A DNA stretch of 64,000 bases from Alphaproteobacteria bacterium (GTDB taxonomy: Bacteria > Pseudomonadota > Alphaproteobacteria > DSM-16000 > Inquilinaceae), in assembly GCA_028277405.1 (NCBI GenBank), contig JANQGH010000100.1, positions 1-64,000 on the forward strand, given 5' to 3'. Each line of letters begins with the position of its first letter. The stretch's first letter is position 1. The notes under the pieces were generated by a model. That model saw only the letters and a program-made list of their open reading frames with translations. It ran no database searches and was not told where the DNA came from. Positions 160 to 3,362 of the stretch are shown one piece after another. Both the position numbers and the translations under genes were made by a program.

Positions 160-900
160 GTGGCCCTTGGCGGAAGGTCGCAAAAGCAGAATATTGTCCC
201 CCCGGACACCGATCATTTGGGGTCTTTGCCCGAACCGAAAGCACAGAAGGACGCATCATTGACCTGGTGGCAGAAGAACCGACGCATCCTGGCGCCGCTT
301 TCGGCGGCCGTATTGGCCGCCGTGCTTTACGGTCCGGCCGGGGCCGGCATGCTCTGGTCGATCGTGGCGTTCTTTTTCTTCTGGATCATCGCCGCGCGCC
401 TCTTGCGGCCAGACCCGTACGCCGCGCTGTTCGACCAGGCCGAGGGCCTGTTGGTCGACCCCAAGCTGCTGGCCCAGGAACTGCGCGTGGCGGAAGGCCG
501 TCTGCGCACGATCCGGCGCGACAGCTTCCGGCTGAACGATCGCGATATCCGGCAGACGGTGGGGGCGATCAGTGGCTCGGCCAAACAGATGATCCGCGAG
601 GTCAAGGCCAACCCGGCGGAGTTTCCGCGCGTCCAAAAGGCGCTGGGCAGCTATCTGGGGCATCTGGAAACGGTGACCGGCAGCCTGCTGACCCTGCAGC
701 GCGAGGGCGAGGACAGCCAGGCGCTGACCGACCGCACGCGCCAGACCCTCGACGAGCTGGCCGAAACCTTCGACAAGTACCGCCGCAAGATGGTCGACGA
801 CGACCGGCTTGAGCTGGATGTCCGGCTGGAACTGCTTGAACGATCGATGCAGCGCGACGGCCTGAAACGGGCGGCCACGGATCTCAACCGAAGGTCTTGA
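160..900 (+). CDS. XpaC-like (5-bromo-4-chloroindolyl phosphate hydrolysis family) membrane protein
   Basis: Protein of 246 residues. After a polar N-terminus there are two adjacent hydrophobic segments (about residues 42-62 and 65-80), then a long charged, mostly helical cytoplasmic part. The C-terminal block with TFDKYRRKMVDDDRLELD and LLERSMQRDGL resembles the end of XpaC-family proteins, whose molecular role is unclear. The first usable codon is GTG at 160, about 20 bases after a GGGAGG; an internal TTG at 259 just before the membrane segment is an alternative. No partner is visible; it stands alone between leuC and a repeat element. Confidence 0.6.
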   Translation: MALGGRSQKQNIVPPDTDHLGSLPEPKAQKDASLTWWQKNRRILAPLSAAVLAAVLYGPAGAGMLWSIVAFFFFWIIAARLLRPDPYAALFDQAEGLLVDPKLLAQELRVAEGRLRTIRRDSFRLNDRDIRQTVGAISGSAKQMIREVKANPAEFPRVQKALGSYLGHLETVTGSLLTLQREGEDSQALTDRTRQTLDELAETFDKYRRKMVDDDRLELDVRLELLERSMQRDGLKRAATDLNRRS

Positions 901-960
901 AGCCGGTTTCCGCCCAACCCGCTGGCGCCCATTTCGGTTGATGTGATAGCGTCGGGCTAA

Positions 961-1222
961 TACCAACTTGCGATGATAATGATCCATGTGACAGCGTTGT
1001 CTTGTTTGCTGGTCAGGCGCGTGTCGCGCCGTGGTGTGGATGCACCACAAGCGGCGCGCAACGCAGCCAGCGGGCAAGACAACGCGGCCTTCGGTGGGGC
1101 CAAATCGCTCCACGGCTGCGTTGCGCTGCTTGCCCGATGCTGAAGCATCGCGCTGCGCGACGCGCCTTGCCGTGAACCGATTTGGTCGCCATCACATGGG
1201 TCATTATCATCGCAAGTTGGTA
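961..1222. repeat. Palindromic MITE-like element with 31-bp terminal inverted repeats
   Basis: The ends 961-991 and 1192-1222 are inverted copies, 30 of 31 positions matching (mismatch at 983/1200), both starting TACCAACTTGCGATGATAAT from the outside. TAA lies directly outside each end (958-960 and 1223-1225), consistent with a 3-bp target duplication. The interior continues as a degraded palindrome: AGGCGCGT-GTCGCGC near 1016 is mirrored near 1160, and GCAACGCAGCC/CGGGCAAG blocks near 1058-1078 recur inverted near 1113-1130. No transposase is inside, so it would be non-autonomous. It ends about 50 bp before the secreted-protein gene at 1274 and may affect its expression. I do not know its family. 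Confidence 0.75.
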
Positions 1223-1273
1223 TAACTCGCTTATTGGGCAAACCTAAGCCGGCAGGGTCGGAGCGGCGCGGGA

Positions 1274-1738
1274 ATGAAGTCTTTCTTGTTGGCCGTCGCG
1301 CTCACCGCGCTTACCCAGATCGGACAGGCCCAAAGTCTCGGCCAGTCGCCGACCTATGGCAGCATCAGCCTGAATGCCGGCTTTCCCCTCGACCCGTTCT
1401 TCGTTCGCGTCAGCCCGGGCGGCGCCATCGATGCCCGCCAGACGCTGGGCGGCAACTGCCGGGGCCAGATCGCCGGTCCGCCGGATTTTCAACTAAACTA
1501 CAATGCCGGAACCGTCTTCCCCCTGCACATCTTCGTGCAGTCCGGCATCGACACGACGCTGATCGTGAACGACCCGTCCGGCACCTGGCGCTGCGATGAT
1601 GACGGCATGGGCGGCCTGAACCCGATGATCACCTACGCCAACCCGCAGTCCGGCCTCTACAACATCTGGGTCGGCGCGCTTTTGCCGGAAACCAGCCCGG
1701 TACAGGCGACTCTGTTCATCACCGAACTTCAGCCCTGA
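1274..1738 (+). CDS. Secreted single-domain protein, paralogue of the three-domain protein at 1995
   Basis: Protein of 154 residues with a signal peptide (charged MKS, hydrophobic stretch, likely cleavage after GQA around residue 19). The mature part is one copy of the domain found three times in the neighbouring protein: a TYGSISLNAGF opening, AGG-like turn, NCRG cysteine, DTTLIVNDPSG core, W-C-DDD acidic cluster, GLNP, then QSGLYNIWVG. The two conserved cysteines probably form a disulfide in the periplasm or outside the cell; the Asp cluster could bind calcium. The fold is probably a beta-sandwich like PPC-type domains, but I do not recognise the family with certainty. Start ATG 1274 follows GGAG at about 14 bases. 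Confidence 0.8.
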   Translation: MKSFLLAVALTALTQIGQAQSLGQSPTYGSISLNAGFPLDPFFVRVSPGGAIDARQTLGGNCRGQIAGPPDFQLNYNAGTVFPLHIFVQSGIDTTLIVNDPSGTWRCDDDGMGGLNPMITYANPQSGLYNIWVGALLPETSPVQATLFITELQP

Positions 1739-1994: not shown

Positions 1995-3362
1995 ATGAGG
2001 CGTTTGTTTGCGGCTGCAGTGGCCACGGCCCTGTCAGTGACCGCGTTCCAGGGTGCGGAGGCCCAGAACTACCGGCTAAACCCGACCTTCGGAACCGTTA
2101 ACCTGAACAGCGGCTTCCAGCCCAACCCCTACACGACCAGCTTGCAAGCGGGCGGCTCCATCGCCGCCAGCAATGTCGGCTCGAACTGCCGCGGCTATGT
2201 CGCCGACGCGCCGGACTACCGGCTTTACTATCAGTCGGGCGGCTTTCCGTTGCACATTTTTGCCCAGTCGGGATCCGACACCACGCTGGTCATCAACGAC
2301 CCCAGCGGCCGCTGGTTTTGCGACGATGACGGCTATGGCAGCCTGAACCCTCTGGTCACCTTCAACAACCCGGCTTCCGGTCAATACGACATCTGGGTCG
2401 GCACCTACTCGTCCGGTGGCGGCTTCCCACAGGCGACCCTGTCGATTTCCGAGGTTAGCTCCCATGGCGGTGGCGGTGGCGGCGGTGGCGGCACTGTCGC
2501 CGGTAGCCCGAACTACAACCTTCAGCCGACATACGGCACCGTCAACCTGAACAGCGGCTTTTCGCCCGACCCCTACAATGTCTCGGTGCAGGCCGGCGGC
2601 AATCTGGCCGCCAGCACTGTCGGCGGCAACTGCCGGGGCTATGTGGCCGAGGCGCCGGACTATCGGCTTTATTACCAGGCCGGCAACGGCTGGCCGCTGA
2701 ACATCTTCGCCCAGTCCGGCAGCGACACAACCCTCGTGGTCAACGACCCGTCGGGGCGCTGGTATTGCGATGACGACAGCTACGGCAGTCTCAACCCGCT
2801 GGTCACGTTAAACAGCCCACAGTCGGGCCAGTATGACATCTGGGTCGGCACCTACTCGTCCGGCGGCGGCTTCCCACAGGCGACCCTGTCGATCTCTGAA
2901 TTGAACCAAGGCGGCGGCTCGGCCGGCGGCGGTGGCGGTGGCGCCAACATGCCGAACTGGAACCTGCAGCCAGCCTTCGGGTCGGTGAACCTGAACACCG
3001 GCTATACGCCCGACCCTTATGTCGTCTCGATCCAGGCCGGCGGCGACATCCCGGCCAGCAATGTCGGCAGCAACTGCCGCGGCTACGTGGCCGAGGCGCC
3101 GGACTATCGGCTTTACTATCAGGCCGGCAATGCCTACCCGCTGTACCTCTATGCGATCTCCAACAGTGATACGACGCTGGTGGTCAACGGCCCGAACGGC
3201 CAATGGTACTGCGATGACGATGGCGGCAACGGCCTGAACCCGTCGCTGACGTTCAACGGCCCGCAGTCGGGTCAGTACGATATCTGGGTCGGCACTTACT
3301 CGTCCGGTGGCGGGTTCCCGCAGGCGAACCTGTACATCTCCGAGGTGCAGGCGACGCAGTAA
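1995..3362 (+). CDS. Secreted protein with three tandem beta-rich domains joined by poly-Gly linkers
   Basis: Protein of 455 residues: signal peptide with likely cleavage after AEA (residue 23), then three repeats at about 26-153, 174-302 and 322-450. Each repeat has VNLNSGF/VNLNTGY, NCRGYVA-APDYRLYYQ, SDTTLVVN, a W(F/Y)CDDD cluster, SLNP and SGQYDIWVGTYSSGGGFPQA. Each has one cysteine pair (65/109, 212/258, 361/406), suggesting one disulfide per domain. The linkers are runs of up to nine glycines. The enlarged copy of the gene at 1274, it is presumably an exported surface or periplasmic binding/adhesive protein. No catalytic motif is visible and no function is assigned. A strong terminator follows. 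Confidence 0.85.
   Translation: MRRLFAAAVATALSVTAFQGAEAQNYRLNPTFGTVNLNSGFQPNPYTTSLQAGGSIAASNVGSNCRGYVADAPDYRLYYQSGGFPLHIFAQSGSDTTLVINDPSGRWFCDDDGYGSLNPLVTFNNPASGQYDIWVGTYSSGGGFPQATLSISEVSSHGGGGGGGGGTVAGSPNYNLQPTYGTVNLNSGFSPDPYNVSVQAGGNLAASTVGGNCRGYVAEAPDYRLYYQAGNGWPLNIFAQSGSDTTLVVNDPSGRWYCDDDSYGSLNPLVTLNSPQSGQYDIWVGTYSSGGGFPQATLSISELNQGGGSAGGGGGGANMPNWNLQPAFGSVNLNTGYTPDPYVVSIQAGGDIPASNVGSNCRGYVAEAPDYRLYYQAGNAYPLYLYAISNSDTTLVVNGPNGQWYCDDDGGNGLNPSLTFNGPQSGQYDIWVGTYSSGGGFPQANLYISEVQATQ
2070..3344 (+). repeat. Three tandem intragenic repeats (~384 bp each)
   Basis: Units at about 2070-2453, 2514-2900 and 2958-3344 encode the same ~128-residue domain; long stretches are near-identical at DNA level, for example the segments coding GQYDIWVGTYSSGGGFPQA. 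Units are separated by GGC/GGT-rich linkers. Such similarity makes unequal recombination and copy-number change plausible. Confidence 0.85.

Follow-up and report, generated by a model that had tools for sequence, protein, structure and literature searches.

A multicopy, MITE-like palindromic element of Alphaproteobacteria with a conserved cloverleaf fold

The ERIC, RUP and NEMIS/Correia elements are intergenic palindromic mobile repeats of 100-200 bp, the RIMEs of rhizobia are intergenic mosaic elements with more than one palindrome, and the inverted terminal repeats of AAV are T-shaped palindromes with two arms, i.e., viral telomeres that do not transpose. REPINs combine two inverted conserved modules with stems that may vary as long as they remain complementary (PMC3116915). 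For Alphaproteobacteria, REPs are described as CGTC-tagged short hairpins with an 8-9 bp stem starting with AT (PMC3733652), and Br-REP1 as an intergenic repeat with more than one palindrome (PMC5082802).

Here we describe a palindromic element of 262 bp at positions 961-1222 of the window (the whole 64,000-nucleotide stretch of an Inquilinaceae genome that was analysed). Its terminal inverted repeats (961-991 vs. 1192-1222) agree in 30 of 31 bases, with no error in the outer 22 bp, and TAA stands at 958-960 on the left and 1223-1225 on the right, which bears out the 31-bp inverted ends and TAA duplication read from the window in a preliminary description. A repeat search of the window gave arms at 960-996/1187-1223 (complementarity 92%), and the 22-mer end was found at two sites only, both of them element ends (0 in 100 shuffles). 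The interior, previously taken for a degraded palindrome, is instead made of two inverted hairpin arms and a mini-hairpin that are strongly conserved among copies, while the short ORFs over the element look like chance when their translations are read by eye. The features of the window element are as follows:

958-960, no strand: left TAA target duplication (from the sequence; among 60 pairings, 107 of 120 flanks have TNA)
961-991, plus strand: left terminal inverted repeat, forming the outer stem on its 5' side (30/31 vs. the right end, outer 22 perfect)
992-1086, plus strand: hairpin arm 1, a variable paired stem and head (fold and covariation; limits approximate)
1011-1068, plus strand: head 1, AGG ... 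apical hairpin ... AACGC (covariance model R1, 59.7 bits, E 4.5e-11)
1087-1095, plus strand: central mini-hairpin GCC-TTC-GGT (columns 128-138 of alignment A1, 98.1% of cells paired)
1096-1190, minus strand: hairpin arm 2, homologous to arm 1 but inverted (fold and minus-strand head match; limits approximate)
1114-1171, minus strand: head 2, in the opposite orientation to head 1 (67.4 bits with covariance model R1, E 8.5e-13)
1192-1222, minus strand: right terminal inverted repeat, forming the outer stem on its 3' side (repeat search and end comparison)
1223-1225, no strand: right TAA target duplication (from the sequence)

Upstream of the element is a gene ending at 900 (Halogen_Hydrol, PF10112) and downstream a gene starting at 1274, without Pfam match; this copy lies off the stop codon of its neighbour gene. 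The translations of 1274-1738 and 1995-3362 are adjoining secreted-type proteins with a common repeat unit (NCRG ... DPSG.W.CDDD ... L.P), and the second of these includes three copies of the NCRG unit and a weak PPC domain match.

The element is multicopy in its own genome (6.2 Mb). The end pattern, with up to 3 mismatches, occurred 9 times forward and 7 times in reverse (reversed control pattern, 0), and BLAST recovered 11 complete copies at different sites as well as two contig-end halves (C93 and C96), which excludes the single fixed copy that had been raised as the refuting case. Flanking triplets were identical in 8 of these 11 copies and one base apart in the remaining ones, so that the genome search first proposed as a check returned both copy number and duplication. 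All 11 had at least 22 perfect terminal bp despite at least 5 different end sequences, and such perfect matching of ends that vary in sequence indicates that left and right ends changed together. Shortened forms include ~31-bp scars with both ends kept (C28, C66:155952, C88) and short or single-ended remnants (C42, C66:169112, C2, C68). Additional small hairpins are seen in the arms of three own copies (C11, C51 and C87_67683). Own copies L057:1321-1624 and L058:1385-1687 have three extra mini-hairpins with AGCTT-like centres at equivalent arm places, and L056 has one.

A scan of named genomes with the pattern TCATTATCAWCGNNNNTTGGTA yielded at least 114 stretches, those listed being mostly alphaproteobacterial MAGs, Kiloniellales and Pelagibius among them, plus some chance matches in unrelated phyla. 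Based on organism and context, 15 of 114 (10 of the 80 listed and 5 of the 34 others) were excluded as chance hits before flanks, stop codons and orientations were counted, including one (L159) that is Hyphomicrobiales by title but holds no element sequence inside the end. Once the own loci were added, 190 ends and 60 end pairings were counted among the matches listed, and in this set the triplets were identical in 32 of 60 pairings, TNA was present at 107 of 120 flanks and C was favoured as the preceding base (92 of 190 ends), i.e., a C-TNA-G site. The 28 pairings with non-identical triplets suggest that many insertions are old, or that some pairings are wrong. Terminal inverted repeats, target-site duplication and dispersed copies without a transposase, which define a MITE, are thus all present, and multiple copies, target duplication and the lack of a transposase inside support the original reading of a non-autonomous mobile element.

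Among 35 complete copies of the ordinary form (250-263 bp, 34 of them within 257-263), the fold consists of an outer stem, arm 1, a mini-hairpin near position 128 and arm 2, i.e., a cloverleaf, the mini-hairpin pattern being found at 126-130 in 32 copies. The consensus fold of these aligned copies comprises 71 pairs, of which 37 have changed on both sides with pairing kept, and 95.9% of cells are paired, a count inflated by the kinship of the copies. The covariation score was 0.401; 500 shuffles gave 0.172, none of them reaching the observed value, and sliding the structure by 1-3 columns gave no more than 0.093, a comparison in which the structure is favoured over its slid versions by being derived from the alignment used to score it. 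Variability is among the highest at terminal positions 7-10, and still each of these is paired in 34 of 35 copies. This suggests that the folded shape itself is the conserved trait, with stems and ends changing in sequence.

Each arm ends in a 58-nt tip (hereafter head), and the two heads are homologous to each other in inverted orientation; they consist of AGG, a stem that varies, the apical hairpin GCGATGC/GCATCG and RACGC. A regular expression found 84 heads and missed 10 of 94 arms; 30 of the 84, picked for diversity and hand-trimmed, were used to build the covariance model R1, and both sides had changed in 16 of the 18 pairs of these 30 heads. In the window, R1 matched strongly at the two head positions only (next best E 0.18). 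Among 150 heads listed, all 19 neighbouring pairs less than 400 bp apart were inverted, with a span of 159-163 bp, and long forms with wider head spans occur among the named loci (e.g., L115, L133, L172, L209). At an E-value of 1e-5 or better, R1 matched 13 of 142 alphaproteobacterial genomes, each from another family and five of them with at least 30 heads; only three of the 13 (G000, G023 and G094) are known as sources of model sequences.

Relatives with the same core have other ends, namely TAGCCCGG, AACCTGCC, TAGAGC, AGAGCCC and other TACCAA types; further elements end in TAGTGTG, TAGCACCC, AGAACC or TAGAGCC, and the own genome holds two additional elements with TAGCCCC ends. Other-end elements are mostly 262-274 bp long, fold and heads are common to elements with ends as different as TAGCCC, TAGAGC, TAGTGTG and AGAACC, and all 12 hand-picked relatives had the same fold at 262-285 bp; among 18 other-end loci examined, the enclosing stem was absent or unconvincing in 7, and when 18 stretches were analysed for the whole plan, 6, mostly at contig ends, did not resolve, and L243 was without arm 2. 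A 272-bp member (L253:296-567) comes from a 1.9-Mb genome and has AT-rich stems, so that here composition shifts and the fold stays.

The distribution is patchy, with the exact core pattern in 8 of 385 genomes of the class. In a draw from the phylum, R1 at 1e-6 was positive in 2 of 200 genomes, both Alphaproteobacteria; the 22 rows listed for this draw were all from that class, and hence it says little about distribution outside it. The window element had no match among plasmids and phages, and of four other-end elements compared with plasmids, three had no match and one a 34% partial match in Nitratireductor. Five end-pattern matches on viral contigs had no partner end in the stretch examined. 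In one IMG/VR contig, a related element is present in full (L300:5530-5800), flanked by TGA on either side and close to the contig end, and this contig may be bacterial. A description of the family was not found in Rfam or in the literature searched, which is weak evidence, subscription papers being poorly covered.

Insertion sites are linked to gene ends. The flanking triplet reads as a stop codon at 94 of 190 ends among the matches listed, and 42 of these 94 flanks close an open frame 100 or more codons long, whereas in the named loci 2021 of 25794 TAA/TGA triplets do so (p 8e-22); in the CTRAG context, the background is 118 of 834 stop triplets. A stricter count of non-genic or stop sites, leaving out 40 flanks called inside ORFs by a crude gene caller that may count element ORFs as genes, gave 15 of 38 vs. 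317 of 3075 (p 3e-6). In L163, the element lies on the stop codon of a gene that we take from its translation to be lpxI, directly before what is presumably lpxB. Of 12 loci of relatives, 9 contained both genes, which were adjacent without the element in all 9, lpxB homology starting at most 26 bp past the lpxI stop; the other 3 loci had no lpxB match. This comparison replaces the empty site in a related strain that had been proposed as a check, as no true empty site was found for the window copy and an empty-site search for the C84 copy gave no syntenic match in 16 other family members. In two MAGs (L107 and L198), the element occupies one and the same stop codon, adjacent to an efflux-pump adaptor-like gene, with a flank identity of ~80%, and this common insertion site suggests that some copies have long been inherited. 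L107:6827-6969 is a 143-bp deletion form between the efflux-pump adaptor-like gene and an RND-pump-like gene.

Taken together, the element is multicopy, duplicates 3 bp (TNA) at its target, holds no transposase, and has inverted ends that match and a cloverleaf that is conserved, and we think it probable that it is a MITE-like element under selection for its DNA fold and moved in trans by an enzyme. The search for such an enzyme among gene-bearing relatives was negative: in the 80 listed loci (of at least 114), no gene was enclosed by paired ends at a distance of 700-4000 bp, single ends examined in the own genome and other loci had no partner end, and neither the own-genome scans nor the other loci, in assemblies that are incomplete, gave a gene-bearing element with these ends, so that a transposase gene bounded by the same ends, suggested earlier as a check, was not recovered. 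Transposase loci were checked for PF01609, PF01797 and PF13340, and the six DDE_Tnp_1 loci and one Y1_Tnp gene of the own genome are without these ends or heads. A 1410-bp pairing in L172, considered as an ORF-bearing element, was rejected, being two elements, and an IS5 family (IS1031/IS427-like) origin was likewise set aside, since the resolvable ends of 13 DUF4096 loci in 7 of 12 genomes differ. With no transposase between the ends anywhere examined, the element behaves as a non-autonomous mobile element.

These observations might also be read as a plain MITE, the autonomous parent IS of which is absent here; the fold would then be incidental, and the ends would match only because copies with matching ends are the ones that move. 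TNA duplication, terminal inverted repeats, high copy number and deletion forms of ~31-192 bp with intact ends are what such a MITE would display, but elements with unrelated ends, and those of different families, agree in the length of the interior, the place of the mini-hairpin and the inverted heads, covariation is strong deep in the arms, and the free variation of end positions 7-10 is not explained by a plain recognition site. We therefore regard this reading as unlikely.

A REPIN-like element, moved on a folded single strand by a REP-associated Y1 (tyrosine) transposase, seems rather improbable. To our knowledge, IS200/IS605-type insertion makes no target duplication, whereas the TNA on both sides fits one, and the Y1_Tnp gene of the own genome, the presence of which would suit this reading, has no head at its locus. 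Two inverted conserved modules on variable complementary stems do recall REPINs (PMC3116915), but the length of ~260 bp does not, and the alphaproteobacterial CGTC repeats have stems of 8-9 bp (PMC3733652). The head consensus differs from that description as well, and identity with CGTC REPs was rejected on this basis.

Single stem mismatches, counted from a folding without G-U pairs, were G.T in 51 and A.C in 41 cases (p 0.35), with G.T/A.C of 25/8 in arm 1 and 8/21 in arm 2; such opposite biases fit arms that are inverted copies, whereas one RNA strand would favour G.T throughout. Orientation relative to the preceding gene was 21 vs. 18 (3 unclear), no Rfam family reached its gathering score in window 700-1500, none of 15 element loci had an Rfam match, and a terminator search gave one weak terminator-like match vs. 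0.7 expected. The RNA structure once suggested near the gene at 1274 is thus not supported, and we favour selection or repair acting at the DNA level, with some room left for an RNA role by an RNA folding energy better on the plus strand in 25 of 35 copies. An element that acts as structured RNA (3'-UTR element, stabiliser or terminator), having spread by transposition and being retained because of that role, would account for the location at gene stop codons, the compensatory changes and this strand bias, but is the least plausible reading given the mismatch and orientation counts, the lack of an Rfam match, and copies within co-directional pairs (lpxI-lpxB), which speak against strong termination.

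Returning to a MITE-like element selected for its DNA fold, an enzyme supplied in trans would cut at the element ends and insert at C-TNA-G, selection or repair may act on the element in the form of a folded DNA strand or a cruciform, and the paired heads could be the feature recognised by a protein. As TAA and TGA are both TNA triplets, an element inserting on a stop codon restores that codon, which makes gene ends safe sites. One may speculate further that the element is defined by its shape, i.e., a DNA cloverleaf with two inverted heads read by a dedicated protein, all other stems, including the terminal repeats in contact with the target, being free to change as long as they pair, and the end families being one lineage that rewrites its ends via folded-strand copying or hairpin-templated repair; we put this forward tentatively, as a possibility somewhat doubtful in its entirety. 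If the fold is the conserved trait, this would be a mobile DNA family missed by searches for shared sequence or transposase ends, spanning at least 13 alphaproteobacterial families and often sitting on stop codons. How an element alters its ends and still moves would then become testable, as would the question of whether transposition proceeds through folded DNA in systems other than IS200/IS605 and REPINs, and the R1 head model offers a direct annotation route for the family.

Among known systems, the likeness to the AAV inverted terminal repeats is one of shape only. ERIC, RUP and NEMIS/Correia differ in that the present end family has a TNA rather than a TA duplication, a two-arm fold and other hosts. 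Rhizobial RIME and Br-REP are alike as alphaproteobacterial intergenic repeats with several palindromes, the Br-REP1 core given there (CCGGAATCTCGAGATTCCGG) being unlike the element heads. The nearest likeness in principle is to REPINs and REP-BIMEs (RAYT-associated), which also have a pair of inverted conserved modules at fixed distance; in contrast to these, no RAYT link was found at the one Y1_Tnp locus of the own genome, the heads are unlike CGTC REPs, and the element has ~260 bp, four helices and TNA on both sides. Bacterial MITEs (e.g., QMITE of Coxiella, MITEAba12) are likewise short and multicopy, with no transposase gene, inverted ends, a target duplication and deletion forms, whereas the element described here, for which no parent IS was found, has a cloverleaf interior with inverted heads, and ends that are variable but complementary.
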